37,709 bases of DNA, from positions 1 to 37,709 of the forward strand of contig REDI01000012.1 in assembly GCA_007693595.1 (NCBI GenBank). The letters are read 5' to 3'. Positions within the stretch are counted from its first letter, which is position 1; each line of letters begins with the position of its first letter. The DNA is from Deltaproteobacteria bacterium (GTDB lineage Bacteria > Myxococcota_A > UBA796 > GCA-2862545). Under the pieces are notes generated by a model. That model did no database searches. It was not told where the DNA came from and saw only the letters and a list, made by a program, of their open reading frames with translations. Of this stretch, positions 4,904-28,933 are shown piece by piece. The position numbers were made by a program, and so were the translations under genes.

Positions 4904-6139
4904 CTAGAGCGGGCGCCTCGGCGGAAGGATCACGTTCGCGACGATCACGCCTGCGGCGAGCCCCATGGCGGTGATCCCCGCTTGGATCGCCGTGTCGAGC
5001 CCCCCGTCCACGTCGGACGAGAGCAGGCTGACCAGACCGCGGAAGCCGACGCTACCCGGGACAAGGAGAAAGAGCCCCGGAACGAGCGCGAGGGCGGCGG
5101 GGCGGTCGCGGAGCCGCGCCGCCCCGTGCGCGACCAGGCTCACCGCCAGCGCCCCCGCCGCCGCGTCGAAGGGCGGAGGCATGACCTGCCCCGCCAGGAT
5201 CGCGGTGAAGTACCCGGCGAGTGAGGCGGTCGCGATGACGTGAAGGTCTCTTAGGGGCGCCTTGAGCAGCACGGTGAACGAGACGATGGCCACGGCGAGC
5301 GCCACGAGCAGAGACCACGGCGGTAAAGGCGACGAGGCATGAACCGGCGCGGGCCACCAGAGCCAGAGGGACATGCCTCCGACCGACCCCAAGGCCAGCG
5401 ACGCGAAAACGGAGAGCACCCCGCCCAAGCGCGCGGTGCCCGATGAGAGGTGCCGACTCCCGAGCTCCATCATCGCGGTGGTCAGGGAGAGCCCAGGGAC
5501 GAGAGCGATGATCCCAGCCAGGCTGACCAATCCGACGTCCACGGGCCAGACGATCCGGCTCACAGCCCCCGCGAGCGCCCCTGCCAGCGCGGCCCCGAGC
5601 AGGTCCGCCAGGGTCGAGACCCCAGGCCGCTGGCTCGCGCGCTCGATCACCGCACCCACCCCCAGGCCCGTGCCTGTCGCAGCGAGGACCTCGGGCAGGC
5701 CTCCTCCAAAGAGGACCGCGATGGCGCCCGAGGCCGCAGCGTACGCAGGGAGCGTAGCCCACAGAGGGTAACGGGCCCCCGCGGCGGTGATCTGCTCCAA
5801 GCGATGACGAGCCCGGTCCAGATCGAGCTGGCCCCCCACCAACTGCTTGACCAGATCATCGACCGCGTCGAGACGCCCTAGATCCAGGGCACCAGGGCCC
5901 GTGCGGAGCAGCACCGTCCTGGCTACCCGAGGTGAGCCAAAGCCCGCATAGATCGCGGTCGGTGTGCTAAAGACCCGCGCCTCGACGCCGAGCCGAGGGG
6001 CCAGGACCCCGACGACCTCTTCCAGGCGGTGCGCCGGCGCGCCCGCATGGTGGAGCCCCAACGCCAGATCACAGAGCAAGACCTCGGCGTCGGTCAGCGC
6101 GTGGGGTGATGGCTCAGACACGTTCATGCAGGGGACCAC
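4904..6139 (-). CDS. ThrE-type threonine/serine exporter family protein
   Basis: A 411-residue inner-membrane protein. The first 110 residues are a soluble domain (HHAGAPAHRLEEVVGVLAPR, then VFSTPTAIYAGF), the hallmark N-terminal region of the ThrE/DUF1212 family. About ten membrane helices follow, including the paired motifs PGLSLTTAMMEL (first half) and VPGSVGFRG (second half). Both ThrE halves, which some bacteria encode as separate subunits, are fused here as in the corynebacterial exporter. The family exports threonine and serine using the proton gradient; the actual substrate here is inferred from family only. The start may be the GTG at 6139 or the ATG four codons later; neither has a strong ribosome binding site. 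Confidence 0.9.
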   Translation of the reverse strand: MVPCMNVSEPSPHALTDAEVLLCDLALGLHHAGAPAHRLEEVVGVLAPRLGVEARVFSTPTAIYAGFGSPRVARTVLLRTGPGALDLGRLDAVDDLVKQLVGGQLDLDRARHRLEQITAAGARYPLWATLPAYAAASGAIAVLFGGGLPEVLAATGTGLGVGAVIERASQRPGVSTLADLLGAALAGALAGAVSRIVWPVDVGLVSLAGIIALVPGLSLTTAMMELGSRHLSSGTARLGGVLSVFASLALGSVGGMSLWLWWPAPVHASSPLPPWSLLVALAVAIVSFTVLLKAPLRDLHVIATASLAGYFTAILAGQVMPPPFDAAAGALAVSLVAHGAARLRDRPAALALVPGLFLLVPGSVGFRGLVSLLSSDVDGGLDTAIQAGITAMGLAAGVIVANVILPPRRPL

Positions 6140-6203
6140 GAAGACGGGAGCGAAGGCTCTTGGGCATAACCGGACTGCTGGCCCCCAAGCCCGTCCTCAT
6201 CGA

Positions 6204-6779
6204 TCAAGACTCCTGGGCCAGCCTCTTCCTACGACGGGCCAGCAGCAAGAAGATCACCGCGATCAAGGCCCATAAGAGGCTCGCGCCCGTCATGCTGAAG
6301 CCGGCGACGATCGCGATGCGGTTGCCCACCGGATTCTCGACGGCTCGGGCCTCCATGAAGAAGCTGCTGTCGAGCGGATCGACATAGATCTCGTAAGGGT
6401 GAGGGGCGTCGGCGGAGTGGTTCCGCCAACCGATGGTTCGCTCGTAGTTGATCGGCATCCGCTCGACGACCGTGCCCCGAGAGGGATGGTCCATGCGCAC
6501 GAGCCCGTAGTAGTTGAACCGATCGCGCATCGGAGCATCGTCGTCGTAGTGACGAGGGTTCCGCGGGACGGTCTCGACGCCGATGATCTCGGCGGTCAGC
6601 TCTACGCCATGCTCTCGGAGGTGCTCTCCCTTCATTTGGTACCAAAAGCCGAACACGACAAAGGCGATCCCAAGCGCCATGACGAGGAGCGCCAGAAAGA
6701 GCTGCAGCTCCGGCCCACCCCCCTCGGACTCCTTGGAGGCTTGGGCTGCGGCCTTGGTGATTTCGTCCTCTTCCTTCAC
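6204..6779 (-). CDS. DUF3592-like two-helix membrane protein
   Basis: A 191-residue protein starting at GTG (6777-6779) with GAGGAAG just upstream. A charged cytoplasmic N-terminus leads to a membrane helix at about 27-48 (LFLALLVMALGIAFVVFGFW). An extracytoplasmic beta-rich domain of about 105 residues follows, then a second helix at about 157-180 and a basic tail (RRRKRL). The layout, with a GxxL-type loop converting into a YGLVRM strand and a closing YVDPLDSS segment, fits DUF3592, a family of unknown function where the final strand resembles yVnP.dP. It lies just upstream of the ThrE gene on the same strand, 64 bases away, so co-transcription is possible. Confidence 0.75.
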   Translation of the reverse strand: MKEEDEITKAAAQASKESEGGGPELQLFLALLVMALGIAFVVFGFWYQMKGEHLREHGVELTAEIIGVETVPRNPRHYDDDAPMRDRFNYYGLVRMDHPSRGTVVERMPINYERTIGWRNHSADAPHPYEIYVDPLDSSFFMEARAVENPVGNRIAIVAGFSMTGASLLWALIAVIFLLLARRRKRLAQES

Positions 6780-14506: not shown

Positions 14507-15496
14507 TCATGTGACTTCGAGCAGGGCCGCCCCCGCGGTGTAGCCTGCCCCCGCGGTGAGCACCATAACGCTGGAGCCCGCGGGCAAGGGGCGCCGACGG
14601 AGGGCGCGGTCGAGCACGATGGCGGCGGAGGCACCTCCGACGTTGCCGATCTGGTCGACCTCGATGGCGAACCGCTCCCGCGGGGCCCGCAGAATGCGCG
14701 CCACTCGCTCCAAGATGCGCAGGTTCGCCTGATGCGGCACGATGAGGTCGAGGTCTTCGGCACAGAGACCGAGGGGCTCAAGCAGCGCACGAGCGACATC
14801 GACCAGACCCTCCACCGCTTCGAAGAAGACGTGGGGCCCTTCGCGGATCTGAAGCGCGTGCTGGCCGGCGCGCAGGGTCTGCTCCGAGGTCGGCAAGCGG
14901 CTCCCGCCGGCAGGCACGATCACCGCGCCATGGCCTCGACCATCGGCCCCGGTGACGGAGGCGAGCAGGCGCAAGGAGCCCGGCGGGGCCCCCGCCGCTG
15001 GACCGACGATCGCGGCGCCTGCCCCATCTCCGAACAGGACGCGCACCCCCGGCGCGGCCGCTCGCAAGGTGCGCACCCGACACTCCCCGGCGCCGACCAG
15101 AACCGCCCGATCGCCGGTGAGCACGCACCGGGCAGCGAGATCAAGACCCAGCACGAAGCCCGCGCAGGCGCCTCCGAGGTCGATCGCAGGGACCGTCGGT
15201 AGACCCAGCCCGTGCTGCACGAGAGGGGCGGTGGCCGGGGAAGGATGGTCTGGCGTGACCGTCGCGACGAGCACCCGATCGATCGGCGGGCCCTCGTAGC
15301 CATCCAGCGCCCGCTCACAGGCGCGGATCACGAGATCCGACGTCGCGTGCGACGCGGGGGCGACGTGCCGTGTGCGCACCCCGGTCAGGTCCACGAAGGA
15401 GCGGTCGAGGCCCAGAGACTCGGTGGTTACCACCCGCTCGGGCAGGTGGTGCCCAAGCCCAAGCAGGGCGACATCGTCGAAGAGGGTGTGACGCAT
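14507..15496 (-). CDS. Beta-ketoacyl-ACP synthase III (FabH-like)
   Basis: A 329-residue thiolase-fold enzyme with a full KAS III triad: nucleophilic Cys in DLGGACAGF (C111), His in VPHQANLRIL (H255) and Asn in QIGNVGGASAA (N285). The early GLGHHLPERVV strand, the GVRTRH substrate-gate region and the VLFGDGAGAAIV block are also typical. KAS III condenses an acyl-CoA with malonyl-ACP to start a chain. The ATG is at 15494-15496. It stands apart from any fab operon and lies about 2 kb from an acyl-processing cluster that has its own KAS III-like protein, so it may serve that pathway rather than primary fatty acid synthesis. Both roles remain possible. Confidence 0.93.
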   Translation of the reverse strand: MRHTLFDDVALLGLGHHLPERVVTTESLGLDRSFVDLTGVRTRHVAPASHATSDLVIRACERALDGYEGPPIDRVLVATVTPDHPSPATAPLVQHGLGLPTVPAIDLGGACAGFVLGLDLAARCVLTGDRAVLVGAGECRVRTLRAAAPGVRVLFGDGAGAAIVGPAAGAPPGSLRLLASVTGADGRGHGAVIVPAGGSRLPTSEQTLRAGQHALQIREGPHVFFEAVEGLVDVARALLEPLGLCAEDLDLIVPHQANLRILERVARILRAPRERFAIEVDQIGNVGGASAAIVLDRALRRRPLPAGSSVMVLTAGAGYTAGAALLEVT

Positions 15497-16646: not shown

Positions 16647-17441
16647 CTACACGTCCGAGGGGGCCGCGGAAACGACCTGCCCAGCGGCCACGACCTCGCC
16701 TGCCCCCACGCGGGCGCCGCGAAGCAAGATCGCTCCCTCGCCGATGATCGCGTTTTCACCTACACTTACGTCTCGCACAGCGATCGCCCCGGTCCCGAGC
16801 ACGGCGCCCCCCTCGAGCGTCGAGTTGGGCCCGAGGTTCGCCCCAAACCCGACCGTCGCCCCTGGACCTACCGTGCAGCCGGGGCCCAGCGCCGCGCGGC
16901 CAAAGATCTGGGCCCCTTGGGCGATGTGCACCGGGGCCAGGATCAGCCGACCGCCGACAAAGAGGTGCGCGCTGACGATCGCGCCGGTGCCCACCAGCGC
17001 GCCCGAGCCGATACGCACCAGGTAGGCCTCGGTGATCGCGGCGTCTGACGAAAGGTTGGCGGTGAGGGCCACCTTACCGCCGAGGGCGCTCAACGCGAGG
17101 GTACGCAGGACGACCGAGCCCATCACGATCTCGCGCCACGCCGCCTGGTGCACCACCCGCTGCAGCCAGAAGCGAACCAGCCACATCGCGGCATCGAAGG
17201 AGGGCAGGGCGTGCTGCCCAGGCCGAGGCTTCGGCAACACACGGTGGAGCAGGGCCACCTCGAGCAACAGCCCGAGGAGCACGCCGAGCGCCAGCGGAGG
17301 GACGGTCGCCCAACGCCAGACCCCAAGGGGCTGGTGGAGGAGGTCGAAGAGGATCCCGGCCCCGGCGAGCGGGAGACCGACCAGTACGGCCAAGGCGAGC
17401 AGGTAGGCGAGATCGACCGTGAGGATGAGCCAGCGAGGCAA
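16647..17441 (-). CDS. Membrane-anchored left-handed beta-helix (hexapeptide) acyltransferase
   Basis: A 264-residue protein. No ATG or GTG fits; the TTG at 17439-17441, preceded by CGGAG, gives a sensible start, while the upstream frame runs into the divergent ACP gene. Two or three membrane helices (about 5-28, 38-56 and a weaker one near 90-105) precede a region with DAAITEAYLVRIGSGALVGT. A left-handed beta-helix of hexapeptide repeats follows to the end (IAQGAQIFGRAALGPGCTVG and onward). The layout resembles the C-terminal region of the Pls/PosA-type NRPS terminal domain (TIGR02353). Transfer of an acyl group to a small substrate at the membrane is the likely activity. It is divergent from the ACP operon with only 72 bases between them. 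Confidence 0.8.
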   Translation of the reverse strand: MPRWLILTVDLAYLLALAVLVGLPLAGAGILFDLLHQPLGVWRWATVPPLALGVLLGLLLEVALLHRVLPKPRPGQHALPSFDAAMWLVRFWLQRVVHQAAWREIVMGSVVLRTLALSALGGKVALTANLSSDAAITEAYLVRIGSGALVGTGAIVSAHLFVGGRLILAPVHIAQGAQIFGRAALGPGCTVGPGATVGFGANLGPNSTLEGGAVLGTGAIAVRDVSVGENAIIGEGAILLRGARVGAGEVVAAGQVVSAAPSDV

Positions 17442-17513
17442 CGGGGCTCCGGACAGAGTGAGGTGGCGCGAGAGGCGTGTGTATCGTACGACAGACAGCG
17501 AGGAGAGGTGCCG
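17442..17513. promoter_or_regulatory. Short divergent control region of the acyl cluster
   Basis: Seventy-two bases separate the leftward acyltransferase start and the rightward ACP start, so both promoters must be here or overlap the coding ends. An eight-base palindrome TCGTACGA lies at about 17484-17491. AGGAGAGG at 17501-17508 is the ACP ribosome binding site. No -35/-10 pair is convincing. Confidence 0.4.
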
Positions 17514-17756
17514 GTGAACGAAGCGGACATCATGCAGCGGCTGCGAGCCACCCTGGTCGACGAGTTCGACGCTCCGGTTGAGGCGGTCGTGGCCGACGCC
17601 CACCTCCGGGCGGACCTGGGCTTCGACAGCCTCACCCTCACCGATCTCGCCTTCCTCGTGCAGGGTGACTTCGGGTTCAAAGCGACGGCCGAAGACTTTC
17701 GAGACGTTCGCACCGTGGGAGATCTCGCGGCGCTCATCGCGCGGCATGTCAGCTAG
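17514..17756 (+). CDS. Acyl carrier protein
   Basis: An 80-residue ACP starting at GTG with AGGAGAGG just upstream. The four-helix carrier pattern is present, with the phosphopantetheine attachment Ser in ADLGFDSLTLTDLAF (S39) followed by the acidic-hydrophobic helix II. A 4'-phosphopantetheine arm added here carries acyl groups as thioesters. It is the first gene of a rightward operon and overlaps the next gene, a carboxyltransferase-like protein, by 11 bases, implying translational coupling. I infer that it carries the substrate or product of that enzyme or of the downstream ligase and KAS III-like proteins. Confidence 0.93.
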   Translation: MNEADIMQRLRATLVDEFDAPVEAVVADAHLRADLGFDSLTLTDLAFLVQGDFGFKATAEDFRDVRTVGDLAALIARHVS

Positions 17757-19008
17757 CTCCCGACGCCCCATCCGGTGGTCCGCCCGCCAGAGGCTGGAGC
17801 GCCTGGTCGATCCGGGCAGCGAGGCGGGGACGTTCGACCCCACTGGCGCGCTGTGGGTCGGCACCGCCGAGGTCGAGGGTCGTGCGATCTCCCTGCTGGT
17901 GAGTGATGTGCAGGTGGATCGGGGGGCGCTCGGGGCCCAGGCGGCCGCGGCAGCCACCGCCGAGGTCCGGCGGGCGCGCTCGGTAGGGAGGCCGGTCGTG
18001 TGGCTCGTCGACAGCGATGGCGCGAGGACCTCCGAGGGACTGCCTGCGGTGGAGCGGTGCGCGGAGCTGCTCGCCGCCCTCGCCGAGGCGCGCGGGGAGT
18101 GCCTGCGCCTCGCGGTGAGCCACGGGCTCGCGGGCGGCGTGGCCGCCTATGGGCTGGCGTTGTGCGACCTGTCGGTGGGCATCGCGGAGCGGAGCTTCAC
18201 CTTCGTCGCAGGACCCGCGGTGGTACAGTCCGCGATCGGTGAGCGGACCCCTCTCGACGCGCTCGGCGGCACGCCGGTTCACCTGGCCGCGGGCACGCTT
18301 ACAGAGGCGGTCCCCGCCGACCCCGAGGCTCTGACGTGGGTTCGGACCGTCCTGGGCTTCGTTCGTCGCGCCGAGCCGATCCCCGCGACCGAGCGCTCCT
18401 TCGAGCTGCCCGAACCCCATCGGCCCTATCCGTCCGCGCGAGTTCGGCGGGCGATAGTCGACGAGGACACCTTCCTTCCCCTATACCGCGGCTTCGGATC
18501 GAGCGTCACCGTAGGACTCGCGCGGGTGATGGGGTGGCCGCTCTTGCTGATCCAGAGCGAGCCCACCCACCTGGGCGGCGCCATCGACGTCGAGGCGGCG
18601 CGCAAGGTGGCCAGGGTGCTCGACCTGGCCATCGGGCTCGACCTTCCGATCCTCACCTTGTGTGACACACCTGGCTTCTTGCCGGGGCGCGCCCAGGAGC
18701 GAGCAGGGGTCTTGGTCGAGGGCGCGCGCCTTATCCACGCCTATGCAACGGCGCGCGGTCGCGTGCCCACGGCCTCGGTCATCCTTCGTCGGGCGGTGGG
18801 GGCAGGAGCGGTTCTCGCGTTCGGATCAACCGTTCGCCTCGCACTTCCCGGTGCGGAGCTCATGCAGATGGGCGCTTCCGCGATGGCGGCAGCCTACCAG
18901 CGGAGCGGGACGCCCTCTGCCCCGCCTGCCACGGTCATCACCCCGGAGCATCTCCGCGCGCGTATCGCGACGTGGTTGGAGGCGGAAAAGGCCATCGCGC
19001 CCAGTTAA
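17746..19008 (+). CDS. Acyl-CoA carboxyltransferase beta-subunit-like (crotonase superfamily)
   Basis: A 420-residue protein of the PccB/MmdA carboxyltransferase family, about 100 residues shorter than the usual 510-540. The start ATG overlaps the ACP end. Family marks: RLERLVDPGS at the N-terminus, VWLVDSDGARTSEG (85-98), an oxyanion-hole GLAGGVAAYGLALCD, a FVAGPAVVQSAIGE block, and in the second half CDTPGFLPGRAQERAGVLVEGA (first and last residues near 306 and 327). Such enzymes move a carboxyl group between biotin and an acyl thioester, or decarboxylate malonyl thioesters with a biotin partner. No biotin carboxylase or biotin carrier is in the window. The tight link to an ACP suggests an acyl-ACP or malonyl-ACP substrate, which would be unusual. 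Confidence 0.88.
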   Translation: MSASSRRPIRWSARQRLERLVDPGSEAGTFDPTGALWVGTAEVEGRAISLLVSDVQVDRGALGAQAAAAATAEVRRARSVGRPVVWLVDSDGARTSEGLPAVERCAELLAALAEARGECLRLAVSHGLAGGVAAYGLALCDLSVGIAERSFTFVAGPAVVQSAIGERTPLDALGGTPVHLAAGTLTEAVPADPEALTWVRTVLGFVRRAEPIPATERSFELPEPHRPYPSARVRRAIVDEDTFLPLYRGFGSSVTVGLARVMGWPLLLIQSEPTHLGGAIDVEAARKVARVLDLAIGLDLPILTLCDTPGFLPGRAQERAGVLVEGARLIHAYATARGRVPTASVILRRAVGAGAVLAFGSTVRLALPGAELMQMGASAMAAAYQRSGTPSAPPATVITPEHLRARIATWLEAEKAIAPS

Positions 19009-19151
19009 CACCCGGCCGAGGCGATCCCAGCTCGGCACCGAGGAGGGTGCCCCACCAGTGAGTCGGATAAGGGAGACGCGTGGCGGTGTCGGGCTCATCA
19101 TCGTAGAGGAACCCCACAGCGTGAGGCGCGTCGCCGCGGAGCCCATCGTTC

Positions 19152-19166
19152 GTAGGAGGCCTTCTG
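19152..19166 (+). promoter_or_regulatory. Shine-Dalgarno that fixes a CTG start
   Basis: GTAGGAGG at 19152-19159 is followed four bases later by CTG at 19164. From the in-frame stop at 19122-19124 onward there is no ATG, GTG or TTG until 19473, well inside the conserved N-terminal half of the adenylation domain. CTG at 19164 is therefore the best initiator. Confidence 0.6.
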
Positions 19167-20795
19167 AGCGACACCCTGCTCGATCTACTCGACGCCGCAG
19201 ACCGGCATGGCGGGGAGGTCCGATTCGCGCTGGACAGCCGCGCGACGTCTGCCGATCTGGAGCGGTGGAGCTGGGATCAGATCCGCACTCGCGCAGCGCG
19301 GATCGCAGGCGCCCTGGTCGAGCGCCAAGCGCGAGGCGCCCCGGTCCTGCTGGTCCTCCCGAACGGGCCACCCCTCATCTGTGCGCTGTGGGGCTCGATC
19401 CTGGCCGGTGCGCTGCCAGCCGTCCTCACGCCTCCTCGCGCCTTCGGAGATGCCGAGACCTGGGCCCTGCGCTTGCGGGGTCTGCACGAGGCCTGCGAGG
19501 GGGCGCCGGTGTTGGGCTCAGCCTCGCTGGCCGAGCTACTGTCAGCCACACAGGCCGGTGCCGCCATCCCTTGCTGGCTCGTCGAGGAGCTCGACGCCGC
19601 CCCGGTCCCGGCGCCGCGCCCAGAGCCCTCAGACCCAGCCCTTCTTCAGCTCACAAGCGGATCGGTAGGTCGGCCCAAGGGGGTGGTCCTCAGCCACCGA
19701 GCCGTCGCACGCAACGCGCGGGCGATCGCTTCTCGAGGCGGGATGTCGGGTGAGGATCTCGCCGCCTACTGGGTCCCGATGTCCCACGACATGGCGCTGT
19801 TGTCGCACCTGGCGTGCACGGCGGCCGGGACTCCGCACATCGTCCTACCTACCGAGCACTTCGCGCGAGACCCCGCGGCCTGGCTCACCCTCTGCCCGGG
19901 TGAGCTCAGCCTGAGCGTAGGCCCACCCTTCGCCTTTGAGCTGGCACGTCCACGCTTGCTTCGGCGAGACCCCCTCCCCGATCTCTCGGCGCTCAGGGCG
20001 CTCATCGTCGGCGCTGAGCCGATCGACGCCTCCATCCTTCGCCGGTTCACGCGCGACCTCGCGCCCCTCGGCCTCCGGCCCAACCTCTTCATGCCCTGCT
20101 ACGGTATGGCGGAGGTCACCTGCGTGGCGACCCTTGGGGTCCCAGGCGAGCCCGTCGTCACCGAGCGGGTCTGCCGCCCCCTCTCCCTCGGGGGGCGCGC
20201 CACCCCCTCCACCGACGCCGCGGCCTGCGAGGTGGTGGGCAACGGGCCGCCCGTCGAGGGGGTCGAGCTGCGGATCGTCGACGCACAAGACCACCCGGTC
20301 CCCGAGGGGGGGATCGGACATGTGCAGATCCGAAGCGGCTCCGCCCTCGATCGATATTGGCGCGATGAGGAGCGAACCATCCACGTCTCGGCCGGCCAGG
20401 GGTGGATTCGAAGCGGCGATCTGGGCTGGAGACGAGGTGATCGCGTCTTCATCGCAGGACGACACAAGCACCTGATCATCCGTCGTGGCCGGAACCTCCT
20501 GCCCGAGGAGATCGAGGAGCTGGCGCTCAGCGTGCCCGGAGTGCGCCCGCGAGGCGCGCTCGCCTTTGGGGAGCCCGATCCCGCGGGAGGTCCTGAGCGG
20601 GTGGTCCTGGTGGTGGAGCCCGCCGCCGGCAGCGATCCGACCGCCTTGGTTCGGGCGCTGCGCATGCGCGTGGCCGACGCCCTGGACCTCGCCCTCGACG
20701 CCGTCGAGCTGGTCCCGCCCGGCACGTTGCCGCGAACCACGAGCGGCAAGCTCCAGCGCGGCGTGGCGCGCAAGAGATGGGGGAGCGCTCGGTGA
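19164..20795 (+). CDS. Fatty acyl-AMP ligase-like adenylating enzyme (probable CTG start)
   Basis: A 543-residue ANL-superfamily enzyme. From a CTG start the whole N-terminal domain is present, beginning LSDTLLDLLD. ATP-binding motif A3 is TSGSVGRPKG (164-173). Then come WVPMSHDMALL, A5 YGMAEVT (313-319), A7 RSGDLGW, A8 GRHKHLIIRRGRNLLPEEIE and the catalytic Lys of A10 in TTSGKLQRG (K529). The HDM and RGRN segments recall fatty acyl-AMP ligases, which pass acyl adenylates to carrier proteins rather than to CoA. With ACP genes on both sides, loading a carboxylic acid onto ACP is the likely role. It ends in a GTGA overlap with the next gene. Confidence 0.9.
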   Translation: MSDTLLDLLDAADRHGGEVRFALDSRATSADLERWSWDQIRTRAARIAGALVERQARGAPVLLVLPNGPPLICALWGSILAGALPAVLTPPRAFGDAETWALRLRGLHEACEGAPVLGSASLAELLSATQAGAAIPCWLVEELDAAPVPAPRPEPSDPALLQLTSGSVGRPKGVVLSHRAVARNARAIASRGGMSGEDLAAYWVPMSHDMALLSHLACTAAGTPHIVLPTEHFARDPAAWLTLCPGELSLSVGPPFAFELARPRLLRRDPLPDLSALRALIVGAEPIDASILRRFTRDLAPLGLRPNLFMPCYGMAEVTCVATLGVPGEPVVTERVCRPLSLGGRATPSTDAAACEVVGNGPPVEGVELRIVDAQDHPVPEGGIGHVQIRSGSALDRYWRDEERTIHVSAGQGWIRSGDLGWRRGDRVFIAGRHKHLIIRRGRNLLPEEIEELALSVPGVRPRGALAFGEPDPAGGPERVVLVVEPAAGSDPTALVRALRMRVADALDLALDAVELVPPGTLPRTTSGKLQRGVARKRWGSAR

Positions 20796-21760
20796 GCCCG
20801 ATGTCCCCATCGCTCGCCTTGGGGCCGGCACCCTGCCGGATCCTCGGAGCCGGGACGGCCTTTCCTCGCGCCTCGGTGGACAGCGCCACCTTGCTCGACA
20901 CCCTCACGCCCGGCCTCCCTCCGCGACGCCGGGCCGCCCTGCTCACCTTCGTTCACCAGGACCTCGGCGTGCGCCAGCGCGCTCATGTTCGCGACGCAGA
21001 GCGCGCGTGGACCTTGGCGGTCGAAGCGGCGAGCCAGGCGCTCGACACAAGCGGGCGACCGTCCCTCGTCGCGCACCTGCACGCCACCTCCACCCCTAGC
21101 CGGTGGACGGGCGCTGACGGCTCCCGCATCGGTCGACGGCTCGGCCTGCGGGTCGCCCATCACGACCTTCGCGGAGGCTGCACCGGCGGCCTTTGGGCCC
21201 TCGTCTACGCCGCGCGTCTCGCCCGCGATGCGGGTGGGGCCGTGCTGCTCACCGCCGCCGACGCCCTCTCTCTCACCTTTCCGACGCCCCAGGACGGCGG
21301 GGAACGCCTCCTGCCGCTGGCCATGGGGGACGGGGCCGCGGCGCTGGTGATCGCGCCAGCCGATCAGGGGGGCCTGGAGCGCGCGGTGTTCGGAGGAGAG
21401 CCCGACCTCTGCGACCTGAGCACCGTGGTCCGCGAGCTGCCCTTCGGAGAGGAGCCCTTGACCCTCACCGGCGATCCCCATCGCTTCTCCGACGCCACCC
21501 GAGCCGGCCTCCAGGCCGCCTTGGATGCCCTCCCCATCCCCGCTCGGTGCACCGTCGCGCTCCACGCCCGCGCCGATGTCGCGCGGGCGCTCACCGAGGA
21601 GCCCTGGTTGGCGTCGCTGGCGACCCACGGCATGCTCGGAGTGGCCTCGCTACCGACCGCACTGATCGAGCTGCGGGCGGCGGGGACCACGGGCACCATC
21701 GCCCTGGCGAGCGCCGGGGGCGGCCTCGGCTTCGGAGCCGCCCTCTGGGAGGAGGCGTGA
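20792..21760 (+). CDS. KAS III-like enzyme lacking the catalytic Asn
   Basis: A 322-residue thiolase-fold protein. The GTG at 20792 overlaps the ligase stop (GTGA) and follows GGGGAG. The nucleophilic Cys is kept in DLRGGCTGGLWAL (C130), as are the MGDGAAALVI block and a His in VALHARADV (H258). However, the usual PHQAN is reduced to LHARAD, and the GNTSAAS motif reads HGMLGVASLPTAL, with Met 281 where Asn should be. In FabH the Cys-His-Asn triad is needed for decarboxylation of malonyl-ACP. Loss of Asn suggests non-decarboxylative acyl transfer, as in KAS III-like acyltransferases that form esters or amides, or an altered condensation. It is clearly distinct from the canonical KAS III at 14.5 kb. 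Confidence 0.85.
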   Translation: MSPMSPSLALGPAPCRILGAGTAFPRASVDSATLLDTLTPGLPPRRRAALLTFVHQDLGVRQRAHVRDAERAWTLAVEAASQALDTSGRPSLVAHLHATSTPSRWTGADGSRIGRRLGLRVAHHDLRGGCTGGLWALVYAARLARDAGGAVLLTAADALSLTFPTPQDGGERLLPLAMGDGAAALVIAPADQGGLERAVFGGEPDLCDLSTVVRELPFGEEPLTLTGDPHRFSDATRAGLQAALDALPIPARCTVALHARADVARALTEEPWLASLATHGMLGVASLPTALIELRAAGTTGTIALASAGGGLGFGAALWEEA

Positions 21761-22995
21761 GGCTCGGCGATCTCCTCCACCCCCGCGCCTCCCTGTTCCT
21801 CGACGGCCGGCGCCTCGACCGCGACGCCATCCTTCGCTACGCCGCCGAGGTCCCACCCATCTCGTCGGTGGTCGAGGTCCCCGCACACGACCCGCTCACC
21901 GCGCTCGCGTACCTCGACGCGGCCTGGCGAGGAGGCGGGCTGCCCCTGCCGAGCCGAGGGGTGAAGGCCCCTCGACCCCTGCCCCCCTCCTCCTTCGACG
22001 CGGCGCTCCTCCTTCGGACGTCGGGGTCCACCGGCACCCCGCGATCGGCGGCCTTCACCGGCGAGGCGATCCGGTGGTCGGCCCGAACGATCGCCGACAC
22101 CCTCGGCTGGTCCACCGAGGACAACATCGGACTGATCGCACCGGCCGACCATGGTTTCGGCCTGGTTGGAGTCCTGCTGGCCGGGCTGAGCAGCGGGGCC
22201 GGGGTGACGGCAGGACAGGCGGCGTTCGCCGAGGAGCGCGCCCAGGCCCTTGAGGGCGCGGGCTGCACCGCGGTCGCCGCGGTGCCCTCCGTCCTCGACG
22301 GGGTGATCGAGGCGATGTCGACCACCGCCCGTCGTCGCCTGCGCCAGATCGGCTCAGCGGGCGGGCCGCTCACGACGGCAGTCGCCGCCCGCCTGCACGA
22401 GCGCTGTCCCCGAGCGACCCTCGTGAATCAGTACGGTTGTACCGAGGCCGGTCCCCGCTTGACAGCCTGCTTCTCTACCGATCCTAGCTTCGAGGAGGGC
22501 TCCGTCGGCCGCCCACTCGACGGGATCACCTTGGAGCTCCACGACGGGGAGGTCGTCTTCTCCAGCCCCGGGCAGATGTGCGGCTATCTGGGTGATCCTC
22601 AGGCCTCCACCCAAGCGCGCTGCGAGCTGTCGACCGGATCGGACGGCTGGCGCACCGGGGATCTCGGTCGTCTCGACCGAGGCCGACTCTACCTGAACGG
22701 GCGCCTCGATGACCGGGTCAAGCTCCGAGGGGCGTGGGTGGATCTGGCTGCCGTCACCGCGATCGTGCAAGCCGCGGGCGCGCGGGAGGCCTTCGCAACC
22801 ACCTCGCCGGATCACTCCAGAGAACCACGGTTGATCGTATTGTATACCGCAGAGAAAGCGCTGCGGCTGGTGGACCTATTGCCGACCCTCCCCCCAGGCC
22901 TCGTCCCCCGGCTCGTTCGGATCGAGGCGCTCCCCCACCTCCCGAGCGGCAAGCTCGATCGCCTGGCGGCCCAACGAATCGCGGAGTCCCGATGA
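21757..22995 (+). CDS. Second AMP-forming acyl ligase, compact form
   Basis: A 412-residue ANL enzyme, shorter than usual because the N-terminal domain is trimmed: motif A3 already appears at about residue 87 (RTSGSTGTPRSAAF, with Arg in place of the usual Lys). Other motifs are NQYGCTEAG (A5), WRTGDLGRLDRGRLYLNGRLDD (A7-A8; final 10 residues are the hinge) and PHLPSGKLDRL with the catalytic Lys (K399). The GTG start at 21757 overlaps the KAS III-like stop (GTGA), and the gene ends in ATGA with the second ACP. It probably activates a second acid for that ACP. The truncated N-terminal half makes the substrate pocket hard to predict. Confidence 0.87.
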   Translation: MRLGDLLHPRASLFLDGRRLDRDAILRYAAEVPPISSVVEVPAHDPLTALAYLDAAWRGGGLPLPSRGVKAPRPLPPSSFDAALLLRTSGSTGTPRSAAFTGEAIRWSARTIADTLGWSTEDNIGLIAPADHGFGLVGVLLAGLSSGAGVTAGQAAFAEERAQALEGAGCTAVAAVPSVLDGVIEAMSTTARRRLRQIGSAGGPLTTAVAARLHERCPRATLVNQYGCTEAGPRLTACFSTDPSFEEGSVGRPLDGITLELHDGEVVFSSPGQMCGYLGDPQASTQARCELSTGSDGWRTGDLGRLDRGRLYLNGRLDDRVKLRGAWVDLAAVTAIVQAAGAREAFATTSPDHSREPRLIVLYTAEKALRLVDLLPTLPPGLVPRLVRIEALPHLPSGKLDRLAAQRIAESR

Positions 22996-23207
22996 ACCCC
23001 CAGACCCTCGACGATCTGCTCCGCGCCATCGGGGTGCCCGACGGCGGCCCGGACGTCCCCTTGGAGCTCGAGTCGCTCCAGGTGATCACCTTGGTCGATC
23101 TGATCGAAGACGCGCTCGAAGGCCAGGTCGTGCTTGGCAGCGCCGACGTCACCCGCGCTCACTTCGCGACGCGGCGCACCTTGCTCTCGATGTTGGAAGA
23201 CCGCTAA
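22992..23207 (+). CDS. Second acyl carrier protein
   Basis: A 71-residue carrier protein whose ATG overlaps the preceding ligase stop (ATGA). The phosphopantetheine Ser lies in PLELESLQVITLVDLIED (S28), with Glu replacing the usual Asp of the DSL motif, followed by an acidic helix II. It is short at the N-terminus, where helix I seems compressed, and ends with the usual VTRAHFATRRTLLSML helix. Because the first operon gene is also an ACP, the pathway probably keeps two acyl chains on separate carriers. It is the last gene of the rightward operon and converges on the GH3 gene 36 bases away. Confidence 0.88.
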   Translation: MNPQTLDDLLRAIGVPDGGPDVPLELESLQVITLVDLIEDALEGQVVLGSADVTRAHFATRRTLLSMLEDR

Positions 23208-23243
23208 CGGGCGGTCGCGCCTCGGGACCGAGCCCCAGACGGC

Positions 23244-24842
23244 TCAGAGGGTCGGGCCCTCGCTGAGGTGCTCCAGCACCGCCTTCCAGCCAGGATCGCT
23301 CGTGAGCACCGGAGGCTTGACCTGGGCCTCGATCGCCCCTTGGGCTGCCTTGAGCTTTCGAGCCCGATCCCAGCTCCGGCGGGGGAGCGGATGGACGACG
23401 AGGGCTCCTAGCGCGCCGGCTCGCTGCTTGGGGCCGTAGTCGACGCACTCTCTGCGCAAGGCTTCTTCGAAGCACTCGGCGAAGGCCTGCGGCGCGTCGT
23501 GCTCGACGAAGAGGTGGTAGCGGGGCGGGGAGGACTCCTGGTCGGGGATCATAACCAAGAAGGCAGCATCTCCGGCGTGGGCGGCCGCGTTGAGCACCTG
23601 AGCTCCGTCGAGCAGCTCGCCGGCGAGATTGGAAGCGGCCCCGGCCTTTCGCACGAAGACCAGCTCGGGGGTCCGCCCCCAGTGGCCCGTGACCTCGACG
23701 ATGTCGCCGAGATCGTAGCGGTAGCACCCACCCGTCGTGCTCACCACCACTCGATAGCGCGCCCCGACTTCGGCTTGATGCAGCAGCAAAGCCTCGCCGC
23801 CCCCCTCGGGGACCAGCTCGATGAGGTGGGAGGTGAGCGCGGCTGGACCGCCGAGCGCCGTGTCGGAGAGGGGGACGTTCAGCCAACCCTCGGTGGCGGA
23901 GTAGATCGCGTCGCGGATAGGGAGGCCGGGAGCGAGGGCGGTGAGCTGCGGCAACATCGCGCCGGCGGCGGCGGCCTTCCAGCAAGAGAGCAGTCGAAGG
24001 TCCGGCCAGATCTCTGGCAGCGTCGCGGCGTCTTGCAGGAGGCGCTCGACCTCGGCGGCGCGCGTGGGGTCGGGCTCGATCGACGGCTGAAGCGCGAGGG
24101 GCGCGGCGGCGGCAGGGGCGCCGTGCAAGGTCCCATCACGCAGATCGCGCACCAGCTCTTCGGCGCGGGCGAGCATGGTCTGGTGCAGCCCTAGGAGCCC
24201 CGATGGCATGATCGAGACGGCGAAAGAGATCCGCCGCCGTAAGGCGCATCGGGCGATCAAATAGGTGGCGTCGTCGTGGTTGGCGGCCTCGACCGGAGCC
24301 GCGTAGCGGGCCTGGACGAACCCCGGCTGCACGCTGGCGTTGTACCCGGACATCGAGGCTAATGGCAGGCCATCGCGCGCAGTACCCTCGTAGGATGGAC
24401 CCGTCAGGTAGAGCACCCGATGGTCGAACGCTCGAGGGTGGTCGGCGGTGAGGTGCCACAGAAAGCTAGCGACCGTGCGAAGATATTGGCGTCGGTACGC
24501 AGCGGTGAGGGGGTAGAGCTTTCGGGTGCCTCCGCTGCCCGAGGTGCCCGCCCACGCCTTGATCGGATCATGAAAGAGCCGCTCCCGGTCCCCAGAGAGA
24601 ATGCGCTCGACCTCGCGCTGGTGATCCACCGGGGTCTGCAAGGGCACGGCGCGCTGCCAGTCGGTGAGACACCGAACGCGATCGAGGCGGTACTCCCGCT
24701 CAAAGCCCGTGCCACGCAGCCCGGCCAGGATCTCTTGGAGGACCTGCTCTTGGGCGCGCTCAGGGTCATCGCGGAGCGCGTGGAACCGTCGCACGGCCCG
24801 CAGGCGGGAGAGCTGGCCGAGCCAGCGCAGCCAGGGGATCAT
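23244..24842 (-). CDS. GH3-family acyl-amide synthetase
   Basis: A 532-residue cytosolic enzyme of the GH3 group, which adenylates a carboxylic acid and couples it to an amine, often an amino acid. Visible marks are the P-loop-like GTSGSGGTRKLYPLT (99-113), YSATEGWLNVP (314-324; GH3 consensus YxATEG) and GGCYRYDLGDIVEVTG (371-386). Plant members make jasmonoyl or auxin amides; bacterial members are largely uncharacterised. It ends against the second ACP gene of the acyl cluster, so release of an acyl chain as an amide is a reasonable inference. Its ATG overlaps the SUI1/YciH stop by four bases, so the two are co-translated. Confidence 0.92.
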   Translation of the reverse strand: MIPWLRWLGQLSRLRAVRRFHALRDDPERAQEQVLQEILAGLRGTGFEREYRLDRVRCLTDWQRAVPLQTPVDHQREVERILSGDRERLFHDPIKAWAGTSGSGGTRKLYPLTAAYRRQYLRTVASFLWHLTADHPRAFDHRVLYLTGPSYEGTARDGLPLASMSGYNASVQPGFVQARYAAPVEAANHDDATYLIARCALRRRISFAVSIMPSGLLGLHQTMLARAEELVRDLRDGTLHGAPAAAAPLALQPSIEPDPTRAAEVERLLQDAATLPEIWPDLRLLSCWKAAAAGAMLPQLTALAPGLPIRDAIYSATEGWLNVPLSDTALGGPAALTSHLIELVPEGGGEALLLHQAEVGARYRVVVSTTGGCYRYDLGDIVEVTGHWGRTPELVFVRKAGAASNLAGELLDGAQVLNAAAHAGDAAFLVMIPDQESSPPRYHLFVEHDAPQAFAECFEEALRRECVDYGPKQRAGALGALVVHPLPRRSWDRARKLKAAQGAIEAQVKPPVLTSDPGWKAVLEHLSEGPTL

Positions 24843-25327: not shown

Positions 25328-28300
25328 GTGCTTCAGCCCCGCCACGCCGCCAGGGTCCTCGCCTTCACCTTGGCCCTCATCACCTCGCCCGCGGTCGTCT
25401 CCAGCGCCGCGCCGCCCGCGCCTTGGGGGGACCTCGCCGCGCCCGAGACCGAGGCGATCCTGGCTCAGGACCTCCTGCCGGCCTGGGCGGCCCGCGAGGC
25501 CTCGGCCAAGGCTCGGTCCCTCGCGCTCGAGGCTGTGTTCTCTGGCGACCGGCCCCTCCACGTCGCCGTCCCGCAGCTCGGAGCGATGGCCCTCGACGAG
25601 CTGCCGGTGGTGGAAGGTCGGCTCCGGTCGCTCGAAGGGGCCTCGGAGCGACGGGCTGGGGAGCGGGCGCGCCTCACCGCCGCCATCGTAGCGAATCGAC
25701 CGCTCGTGGGAGTGATCGAGCCCGCGTGGACGGCGATGGCCGACGCCGAAGACCGCGCGGATGCCTTGGAACGGCGGTTGTTGCTCGCCCTCAAGGGGTG
25801 GCTGCGCGAGCACGCTTGGGCTCGAGGGGAGGGGCGGGAGGCCCTCCTCGCCCCCCTTCGGCGACGGGTGGTCAACGCCCGCGCCACGCTCGACGCCCCG
25901 GACGCCGAAGCCCAGCTCACCAAGGCGGCGAGGGCGGCGCAAGAGATCGCCCGAACCGAGGAGCTGCTGCGTCGACTTCGAGACGTGGCGGTAGCGGGCG
26001 CGGCGCCGGTCCCAGAGCCCGACGAAGTGCTCCCTGTCGAGGCCCCGTTCGAGACGCGATACGGCACGGCGCTTCGCCTGGCGATGCTCGCGCAGTCGCT
26101 CCAAGAAGCCTCGGAGCAGGACCTGGTCCTCGCACGGCTGAAACAGGCGACCGAAGCCTTGACCCACGAACTCGAGCCCTTCGCCGAGCGAGAGCTGGAG
26201 GCGGCCGAGCTGTGGGACGAGGCCGTGCGTCACGCACCCGAGGGTCTTCGGCCGGCCCTTCAGGCTCTCGCCGACGCGATCCGCGAGCAGGTCGAAGCTC
26301 AAACGGCTCACGCCGAGGAGGTTCAGTCGACGGTGGCCGAGGCAGAGCAGGCCCGACTCGACCCCAACGCTGCGGCGGCCTTCACCGCGAAGCTGATCGA
26401 GGCGCGCCTCCCGGCAGAGCGGCGCTTGCAGGAGCGCACCGAGGCGAGCAAGGCGCAGCGCGAGACCCTCCAGCAGGCCTACGAGGACGCCCGATCGCGA
26501 CTCGAGGCCTCGCGGGAGACCTTGCTCAGCGCCATCGAGGCGGGGCGCGCGGCGGATAGGCAGGCGATCGACGAACGCTACCGGGCGCTGCCAGCGCTGC
26601 TCGCAGAGCTCCGGGAGCGCGCCCGAACGCTCGATGGCCAGCTCCGAGAAGCCCAGAGAGAGAGCATCGAGACCCTGCGACGGATCGAAGCGGAGCGCTC
26701 TCGGATCCGTGAAGAGAGGCAGGCGCTCCTCGGGGTGACCGAGGCCGATGTCCACCGTCGCAGGGCAGAGGCGCTCGATCGCTGGGAGGACGTGCTCGAG
26801 CGGGAGGAGCGCCTAGGCCGCTCCCGGCTGTCCGATCTCCAAGACGCGCGGAACCGGGTGCTGGCCCTCATTCCCGAGGTCGCGTCCGTCCGCAGCGATC
26901 TCTCGCGTTGGGCCAGCGCTAGCGCTCGGGCCGAGGACCGTTCAGGCTTGCTCCTCGAGCTGGTCGATGAGCTCTCGATGGTCCGCCCCACCTACGCTGC
27001 GACGGTCCGAGCGCGCTGGCACCGCATCCAAGAGAACCCCTACCAACTCCTGGATCTCGGGGTGATCTCCAGCTTCATCTTTGGGAGCTTCTCGTTGCTT
27101 CTCGGCGCGATCCTCTGGATCGCTGCACGTCGATATAGCGATGTCATCATTCAGGCGATCATCGGCTACCTGCACCGGGTTCGGCACATCGGGAGCCTCG
27201 ATCTAGAGAGACTCAAGCCCATGCTCCGCAGGGCGGTGGGTACGCTGGTCGACGTGCTGGGAGCGCTCTTGCTCCTGCGCTTCGTGCCGGCGGACCTGCC
27301 GGAGCTGTCGGTGCTGCTCCTCCTTCTCTTCGAGATCCAGCTCCTGCGGCTCGTACAAGCCACCTACGACCTAGCCTTCGCCAAGGCCCCCTCTCGGCGC
27401 CCGGCCTTGGGGTACCTCGAAGAGTCGGCGTGGAAGCTTGGGCGCCGCATGGCGCTCCTGGTCGCGCTGTGGGTCGCCATCCGAAGGGTGTTGTTGGCCT
27501 TCGCGAACGACCTCCTCGCTGGGTTCGCAACCGAGCACCTAGTCCGCGTCTTCGCAGGCTGGACGCTCGTGGCCATGATACTCCTCTTTGCCTACGCCTG
27601 GGCACCGCACCTGCGCAAGCTGGCGTCGCGGGAGGTCCAGGAGGGTTGGGTTCGCCGATGGGTCGCACTGCCTCCGCCCACCGTGCTCCTGAACGGTCCC
27701 CAGTCGATCGGCTCGATGCTTGTGATCCTCTACTTTGCGGGTCGACGGTGGACCTACTGGCTCGCGCGACGGAGCGCCGGCGCGCGGTGGCTCTCCGCCC
27801 TCGATGTGTTGCGCTTTGGCCGATCTTCCAGGGACGAGGCGAAGGTGGAGCGCACCCCCCTAACCGACGAGGTCAAGCAGAAGGTCCTCAAGGTCGCGGC
27901 CGAGCGGGTCTTCATCGACAGACCCAAGGCTCGCGAGGCCATAGCCAGGGAGGTCCAAGACTGGCACCGCGACGATCAGCAGGGTCTGATCGCGCTGCTC
28001 GGCGACGCCGGCGAGGGGCTCGACACGGCCATCGAGCACTGGAGCACGGCGTGGAAGGACCAGGGGTTTTCGCTCAGAAAGGTCATGATCGATCGTCGCC
28101 TCAAGACCAAGAGCGACGCCCTGTCCTGGCTCACCGAAGCGTTCGAGCTCCCCGAGGTCCCCACCGACGTCGAGCAGGCGGCGGAGCTGTTGGGGGTGAA
28201 ACTCGAGCCTGGTCTGATCGTCGTCGATCGCATGAACCACGCCTTCCTCCGGTCGGTCGGTGGGTTCGAAGCGGTGCGAACGCTCCTCGAGGTCTTCCAC

Positions 28301-28933
28301 GCCGACGGGTTCGATCGCTGCTGGATATTGGCCTTCTATCGACCCTCTTGGCGCTATCTTGAACGACTGGGAACCTCGGTGAACGTGCACCTGGTCCGAG
28401 CGGTGATCGATCTCGTTCCGCTCACGGCGCAGCAGCTGCGCGAGCTCGCCAAGGACATCGCCGAGCAGGTGGAGCTGGAGCTCGACTTCTCCGAACTCGC
28501 CCGCACGGGCGCGCTCGCGGCCTCGGCCGAGCAAGAGCTGGAGCATGCCATCGATGCCTATTATCGCTTGCTTCTAGGGGCTTCCGCGGGGAACCCCTCG
28601 GTGGCGATTGGCCTGTGGCTCGGGTGTCTGGACGACGTCGGAGAGGGTCGAGTGAAAGTCTACATCTCTGACGCTCTCCGAGGGGCTGGGCTGCCTGATC
28701 TCAGCGATGACCACCTCTTCGTCCTCGCCGCCATACGGACCCACCGTAGCTTGACCGAGGCGGAGCTCGTCGAGGTCTTGAACATGGCCCACATCCAGGT
28801 TCGCGCCATGGTCCGACAGATGATCGCCATGGGCTTGCTCTCTCGAGATCACTCGCGGATCGAGATCCGTCGGCTGCGCCTGCCGGCGGTCACCCTGCTG
28901 CTGCGCCGGCGTCACTTCTTGCACTGGAGCTGA
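25328..28933 (+). CDS. Giant coiled-coil membrane protein with degenerate AAA/STAND-like domain
   Basis: A 1201-residue protein starting at GTG with a signal peptide (1-27). Residues 30-560 are extracytoplasmic and mostly Ala/Glu/Arg-rich coiled coil. About six membrane helices follow (near 579-602, 634-652, 658-680, 705-728, 738-760, 785-810). The cytoplasmic C-terminus resembles an AAA+/STAND nucleotide-binding domain: LIALLGDAGEGLDTAI (about 886-901) sits where GxxGxGKT belongs but has Leu-Asp instead of Lys-Thr. A Walker B-like strand LIVVDRMNHAF (about 962) and a winged-helix-like end follow. The coiled coil plus helix layout recalls MscK-type channels without the pore. The MscS channel begins two bases downstream, so this is probably its partner or gate regulator. 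Confidence 0.85.
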   Translation: MLQPRHAARVLAFTLALITSPAVVSSAAPPAPWGDLAAPETEAILAQDLLPAWAAREASAKARSLALEAVFSGDRPLHVAVPQLGAMALDELPVVEGRLRSLEGASERRAGERARLTAAIVANRPLVGVIEPAWTAMADAEDRADALERRLLLALKGWLREHAWARGEGREALLAPLRRRVVNARATLDAPDAEAQLTKAARAAQEIARTEELLRRLRDVAVAGAAPVPEPDEVLPVEAPFETRYGTALRLAMLAQSLQEASEQDLVLARLKQATEALTHELEPFAERELEAAELWDEAVRHAPEGLRPALQALADAIREQVEAQTAHAEEVQSTVAEAEQARLDPNAAAAFTAKLIEARLPAERRLQERTEASKAQRETLQQAYEDARSRLEASRETLLSAIEAGRAADRQAIDERYRALPALLAELRERARTLDGQLREAQRESIETLRRIEAERSRIREERQALLGVTEADVHRRRAEALDRWEDVLEREERLGRSRLSDLQDARNRVLALIPEVASVRSDLSRWASASARAEDRSGLLLELVDELSMVRPTYAATVRARWHRIQENPYQLLDLGVISSFIFGSFSLLLGAILWIAARRYSDVIIQAIIGYLHRVRHIGSLDLERLKPMLRRAVGTLVDVLGALLLLRFVPADLPELSVLLLLLFEIQLLRLVQATYDLAFAKAPSRRPALGYLEESAWKLGRRMALLVALWVAIRRVLLAFANDLLAGFATEHLVRVFAGWTLVAMILLFAYAWAPHLRKLASREVQEGWVRRWVALPPPTVLLNGPQSIGSMLVILYFAGRRWTYWLARRSAGARWLSALDVLRFGRSSRDEAKVERTPLTDEVKQKVLKVAAERVFIDRPKAREAIAREVQDWHRDDQQGLIALLGDAGEGLDTAIEHWSTAWKDQGFSLRKVMIDRRLKTKSDALSWLTEAFELPEVPTDVEQAAELLGVKLEPGLIVVDRMNHAFLRSVGGFEAVRTLLEVFHADGFDRCWILAFYRPSWRYLERLGTSVNVHLVRAVIDLVPLTAQQLRELAKDIAEQVELELDFSELARTGALAASAEQELEHAIDAYYRLLLGASAGNPSVAIGLWLGCLDDVGEGRVKVYISDALRGAGLPDLSDDHLFVLAAIRTHRSLTEAELVEVLNMAHIQVRAMVRQMIAMGLLSRDHSRIEIRRLRLPAVTLLLRRRHFLHWS

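Follow-up and report, generated by a model that had tools for sequence, protein, structure and literature searches.

The contig REDI01000012.1 (GenBank assembly GCA_007693595.1, a Deltaproteobacteria bacterium of the Myxococcota_A lineage), whose full length of 37,709 nucleotides is referred to here as the window, belongs to a draft genome of 4.9 Mb, from the same phylum as the Myxococcota metagenome-assembled genomes (MAGs) that carry related loci. It contains a cluster of acyl-processing genes which, as judged from gene content and homology, is a diverged copy of a cluster that is scattered through the Myxococcota. A first-pass annotation had placed eight genes at 16647-24842: a hexapeptide protein on the minus strand, a plus-strand run of a first acyl carrier protein (ACP1), a carboxyltransferase (CT), a fatty acyl-AMP ligase (FAAL), a ketosynthase of the KAS III fold (KASv), a second adenylating enzyme (ANL2) and a second carrier (ACP2), and a minus-strand GH3 gene. 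All eight are present, but the cluster reaches further to the left by one gene: that at 14507-15496 is KAS2 by homology, and therefore the cluster begins left of the earlier range. The genes of the cluster are the following:

14507-15496, minus strand: KASd (KAS2), FabH-like ketosynthase with the triad Cys111-His255-Asn285; Pfam ACP_syn_III/_C
16647-17441, minus strand: hexapeptide protein, left-handed beta-helix with a hydrophobic N-terminal part; Pfam Hexapep, 9e-11
17508-17756, plus strand: ACP1, acyl carrier protein with the motif LGFDSL; Pfam PP-binding, 7e-12
17746-19008, plus strand: CT, carboxyltransferase of the acyl-CoA carboxylase beta family; Pfam Carboxyl_trans, 6e-52
19164-20795, plus strand: FAAL (ANL1), fatty acyl-AMP ligase; Pfam AMP-binding, 3e-44
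20777-21760, plus strand: KASv (KAS1 homologue), KAS III fold; weak Pfam matches to chalcone synthase and KAS III
21757-22995, plus strand: ANL2, short adenylating enzyme with the A10 lysine retained; Pfam AMP-binding, 6e-28
22992-23207, plus strand: ACP2, diverged carrier protein with the motif LELESL; no Pfam match of its own
23244-24842, minus strand: GH3, acyl-acid amido synthetase family; Pfam GH3, 5e-46, plus GH3_M and GH3_C

The coordinates and the Pfam matches bear out the earlier description of six mostly overlapping rightward genes, flanked by a divergent hexapeptide gene and a convergent GH3 gene: four of the five junctions of the run overlap, by 11, 19, 4 and 4 nt, the sole gap is that of 155 bp between CT and FAAL, and the GH3 gene is located 36 bp from ACP2. 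The start of the hexapeptide gene is placed near 17441, instead of 17957. The FAAL frame has no ATG, GTG or TTG upstream of 19473; the CTG at 19164, which lies four bases downstream of a perfect AGGAGG (window 19123-19170), is the likely, non-standard start of the gene.

In order to find related loci, a profile of five KAS1 proteins has been compared with about 85,000 genomes. The scan has revealed 17 Myxococcota loci, deriving from two sequence patterns, with the whole or part of the set KAS1-ANL-ACP2-KAS2-hexapeptide-ACP1-CT-FAAL, often accompanied by a ketoreductase (KR) gene of the short-chain dehydrogenase/reductase (SDR) type or by a GH3 gene; all these loci come from draft MAGs, where gene starts have been set by a simple coding score, and the relatives include MAGs of Nannocystis exedens and Sandaracinus. 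Since 17 loci carry all or part of the set, the genes are conserved together, and the refuting condition named in the first-pass annotation, a lack of such conservation in relatives, does not hold. All eight core genes occur in one run and in identical order in three loci (L068, L070 and L080); in the last of these (genome G188; L010 is the same record), the order is KAS1, ANL, ACP2, KAS2, hexapeptide gene (minus strand), ACP1, CT and FAAL. Three further loci (L072, L081 and L083) have the core set complete except for ANL, and L073 holds KAS2, CT, KAS1, ACP1, ANL and ACP2 within 7.6 kb, being the locus that is nearest to the window for ANL2 (38% identity over its length), ACP2 (38%) and KASd (51%). 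KASv as a lone probe has found nothing in a first genome scan, and matches in five genomes of the phylum at 34-38% identity; the view of these matches as an isolated weak similarity has been dropped, as the neighbouring genes have shown the matched proteins to be the KAS1 family. In L083, KAS1 (5381-6374) is split over two frames, by a frameshift or an assembly error in that MAG. The window copies of CT and FAAL sit on long branches and are not placed firmly in the trees.

The two halves of the operon suggest two modules, ACP1-CT-FAAL for a carboxylated acyl-ACP1, and KAS-ANL-ACP2 for a second acid and the joining of the two. ACP1 is located immediately 5' of CT in six of the seven loci that have ACP1, and a putative carrier-loading gene of the FAAL type, recognised by its family and by a full-length match with the FAAL structure 3pbk (E 3e-66), adjoins this pair. 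ACP2 has the marks of a carrier protein, i.e. membership in the PP-binding family and a modifiable serine: Ser28 is invariant in the alignment of all 13 ACP2 sequences, and 11 of the 13 (11 of the 12 homologues of the window ACP2) match the PP-binding profile. An ANL gene is found immediately 5' of ACP2 wherever both share one run, and ANL2 probably loads ACP2.

CT matches PccB-type and MccB structures with E values of about 1e-48, and the CTs of the cluster form a distinct subfamily, with the window copy being shortened at both ends. Four changes are common to all seven cluster CTs tested, the window included, and occur in none of three PccB-like controls: the first glycine of the SGGAR motif is replaced by Asp or Glu (S/C-D/E-G across the whole subfamily, with the Carboxyl_trans domain itself retained), a four-residue loop is absent, Asp421 of PccB is replaced by Val, and the pocket Phe by Leu, Ile or Met. 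The pocket Phe is tied to enzymes that are restricted to at most four carbons, while MccB of the stambomycin pathway, which carboxylates medium-chain acyl-CoA, is without the Asp and Phe determinants and has Ala and Gly (PMC5187497); the matching of MccB Gly161 to the pocket-Phe column is our own reading of the structure alignment. No biotin carboxylase gene is present in the cluster, and five are located elsewhere in the genome.

The first-pass annotation had relied on the KAS III variant, KASv, and had overlooked KASd. KASv has retained its cysteine (Cys135), while Met286 stands in place of the catalytic Asn, which is kept in all 16 KASv homologues that cover the site; the match of the catalytic His depends on the alignment used. 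The best Foldseek match of the AlphaFold model of KASv is FabH, at a TM score of 0.71, indicating the FabH fold only, and the model, with a mean pLDDT of 68 and values under 50 over much of residues 211-285, is uninformative on the His. KASd is 43-51% identical to KAS2 of L080 and L073, and the Cys-His-Asn triad is intact in KASd and in every KAS2 covering it. Because KASv lacks the catalytic Asn and the KASd triad is intact, KASd is the likely condensing enzyme in the window and KASv probably is not; KASv may be a partner or a transferase. The catalytic Glu of OleA and PpyS, about 24-26 residues before the Cys, is absent from all 17 KAS1 and from 14 of 15 KAS2 sequences, as would be expected of enzymes of the FabH type, whose decarboxylative condensation requires a carboxylated donor.

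The GH3 protein has the N, M and C domains together with the three nucleotide-binding motifs of the superfamily, and matches plant GH3 structures with an E value of 5e-22. A GH3 gene occurs near the core in five of the 17 loci (L068, where it is clipped by the contig end, L070, L072, L078 and L081). The cluster loci sum to 0.23 Mb, for which the 11 matches in about 117.5 Mb of genomes of the window's family would predict about 0.02 GH3 genes instead of these five; in the GH3 tree, a split with a support of 1.0 places the window copy with the cluster-linked ones and separates it from GH3 genes of its family that lie outside such clusters. GH3 as a bystander has been rejected on this recurrence and grouping. 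Eight of the 17 loci have the hexapeptide gene, six of them with the same divergent orientation relative to ACP1-CT as in the window; the product of the window gene, 31% identical to the counterpart in G188/L080, which is likewise divergent from ACP1-CT, is a probable acyl or group transferase. In nine loci, KAS1 has as a direct or near neighbour a ketoreductase of the SDR type with the Ser-Tyr-Lys motif; that of L081 lies between CT and GH3 in a head-to-tail run ACP1-CT-KR-GH3.

That two carrier-bound acids are joined into a small lipid or lipo-amide, as had been proposed from the first reading of the window, agrees with this anatomy and with the active-site residues. From the genes, their co-occurrence and the named residues, all of which are observed, we infer a dissociated two-carrier condensation pathway that would lead to an acyl lipid or lipo-amide, its reactions, step order and product included. 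FAAL would adenylate a free fatty acid and load it on ACP1, and CT, with a biotin carboxylase and a biotin carrier from elsewhere in the genome, would carboxylate the chain to a 2-carboxyacyl (alkylmalonyl) thioester. ACP2 would receive from ANL2 a second acid, which is probably not an amino acid. One acyl chain would be bound to the cysteine of a KAS III enzyme, in the window that of KASd and in the relatives that of KAS1, KAS2 or both, and the enzyme would condense it with the carboxylated chain, with loss of CO2, to an alpha-alkyl beta-keto thioester, the ketone of which would be reduced by the SDR enzyme in many relatives. GH3 could then use ATP to activate the freed acid and couple it with an amine or amino acid; alternatively or additionally, the hexapeptide protein could hand the chain to an acceptor, and the product would be an amide or an ester. 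We propose the whole scheme tentatively, trusting it slightly less than we doubt it.

Several observations weigh against this two-carrier scheme. The window CT has 420 residues instead of about 490, with Asp for Gly in the oxyanion-type motif and the four-residue loop missing, and therefore carboxylation could be altered or lost. The triad of KASv is incomplete, and the usual donors of KAS III enzymes are plain malonyl groups, not branched ones. There is no SDR ketoreductase gene near the cluster in the window; GH3 is not adjacent to the core in L080 and L073 and is solitary in other genomes; and ANL is missing from L072, L076, L081 and L083, so that the second acid does not have the same source in all loci.

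The alternative that survives best, which we still regard as unlikely, is a simple beta-keto or beta-hydroxy amide: CT would supply malonyl-ACP1 or decarboxylate it, like the biotin-independent malonate decarboxylase, KAS III would lengthen by two carbons one chain loaded by FAAL or ANL, the KR would reduce the product and GH3 would couple the 3-hydroxy acid to an amino acid, in the way of ornithine-lipid precursors. The closeness of KAS2 to FabH (288 bits in L080 against a cut-off of 249), a weaker similarity of CT to malonate decarboxylase subunits, the linkage of the KR to the cluster in relatives and the fatty acids that serve OlsH as substrates all agree with such a route, which would, however, need fewer than two loading enzymes and two carriers for its one extension. 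Its demands on CT are also poorly matched, as every cluster CT is without both short-chain determinants, and CT is a far better match to two other families, acyl-CoA carboxylase and methylmalonyl-CoA decarboxylase, than to malonate decarboxylase.

It is improbable that the role of the KAS enzymes is acyl transfer, or that they work as a heteromeric pair, with no C-C bond being formed in this organism. KASv would then shift an acyl group from ACP2 to ACP1 or onto a hydroxyl, in the fashion of CerJ and ChlB3, and its retention of Cys and not of Asn would suit this role, as acyltransferases with the KAS III fold exist (PMC9573744). The Cys-His-Asp layout of CerJ and ChlB3, with the His at the Asn site of FabH, is not seen in the KASv alignments, where the site holds Met in KASv and Asn in the homologues, and a CerJ-type acyltransferase has been rejected on these residues; the complete triad of KASd also argues against a cluster that only transfers acyl groups.

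We give still less credence to a window copy that is a decaying or repurposed remnant, with a product unlike that of the relatives. The long branches of CT and FAAL, the loss of the KASv Asn, the short CT, the lack of a KR beside the cluster and the non-standard FAAL start could be read in this way, but none of the nine frames is interrupted and most of them overlap, the motifs for adenylation and those of the carriers are preserved, and GH3 has kept its three motifs. The least probable reading is that two acyl or beta-ketoacyl chains are joined head to head, as by MxnB, CorB and PpyS, giving a pyrone or a similar ring. Myxobacterial KAS III enzymes that join two chains are known, with MxnB and CorB belonging to the FabH clade without the Glu (PMC4578411), but there is no polyketide synthase (PKS) here to make beta-keto chains, the Glu of PpyS and OleA is missing, so that joining of the OleA/PpyS type has been rejected, and CT, KR and GH3 would be left without a role.

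A search of the open-access literature has found no described cluster or pathway with this set, in agreement with the first-pass annotation. Among the closest systems is the mycolic acid condensation (FadD32, Pks13, AccD4), the functional list of which comprises a FAAL, a carboxylase, a ketosynthase, two carriers and a reductase (PMC12845086). The window shares the fatty acyl-AMP ligase, a protein of the acyl-carboxylase beta family, the ketosynthase and the two carriers, and its relatives share the reductase; it differs in having separate KAS III and ACP proteins, not one type I Pks13, with no acyltransferase (AT) or thioesterase (TE) among the cluster genes, in the presence of GH3, of the hexapeptide protein and of another adenylating enzyme beside FAAL, and in its Myxococcota host. 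The resemblance is one of logic, not of membership. A type II counterpart of this condensation in the Myxococcota, in which FAAL, ACP1 and CT would produce an alkylmalonyl-ACP, stand-alone KAS III enzymes would link it with a second carrier-bound acid, and GH3 would amidate the alpha-branched acid to a branched amino lipid of a class not yet described, is a specific form of the scheme that we consider rather doubtful.

Other systems share single elements. The stambomycin enzyme MccB, like the cluster CT, is without the short-chain Asp and Phe, but acts on acyl-CoA for a modular PKS, whereas the cluster CT directly follows an ACP, with no PKS. MxnB, CorB, PpyS and OleA share the KAS III fold and the idea of joining two acyl chains, while the window cluster lacks the OleA/PpyS Glu and has a CT and two loading pairs. 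The cispentacin cluster (AmcB, AmcH) shares a stand-alone ACP with a dedicated adenylating enzyme, but its type II ketosynthase/chain length factor (KS/CLF) pair is absent from the window cluster, and the score with the curated NCBIfam model of AmcH, a 2-oxoglutaryl-ACP ligase, is 87 bits against a cut-off of 370; an identity as a cispentacin or coronafacate cluster has been rejected, as the scores lie under the cut-offs. With the OlsH/OlsI ornithine lipid pathway, the window has in common a GH3 enzyme of bacterial origin, for the linkage of an acid with an amine, and its three nucleotide-binding motifs. The substrate from which OlsH forms N-acyl ornithine is a free fatty acid (PMC12493201), OlsH has no such cluster, and the window GH3 is far under the cut-off of the curated NCBIfam OlsH model (43.6 against 620 bits). 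OlsI has not been found, the neighbouring gene on that side being SUI1-like in its translation as read by eye.

A set of nine to ten genes that recurs in scattered, mostly uncultured Myxococcota would represent a new family of lipids or natural products. If the proposed logic is true, a mycolate-like C-C joining of two fatty acids would have evolved outside the Actinobacteria, and in the form of separate small proteins that could be reconstituted one by one. The cluster also supplies a genetic setting for the bacterial GH3 enzymes, most of which, to our knowledge, have no known role. Further clusters for acyl natural products in the window's family may likewise include a GH3 gene: on two contigs (G015:C146, 54592-65451, and G267:C441), GH3 matches are accompanied by FAAL matches that lie within long frames of the size of PKS and nonribosomal peptide synthetase (NRPS) genes.

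Beyond the cluster, the window encodes at 25328-28933 a protein of 1201 amino acids without a Pfam family, with homologues at 26-41% identity in 11 of 20 other genomes of the family; an empty-site comparison by means of this flanking gene has led to no conclusion, as the flanks are not syntenic in the relatives. Beside the core cluster of L068 (626-4631), genes for an MFS transporter, an acyl-CoA dehydrogenase and a cytochrome P450 are located consecutively, as possible tailoring genes. The product of the cluster may be exported, since a MacB-type exporter with its membrane-fusion protein adjoins the cluster in L072 (2185-6303), L083 (457-4575) and L076 (3-1474 and 8451-12590); the same flanks contain an ICMT-type methyltransferase and a conserved membrane protein of 350 amino acids without a Pfam family.

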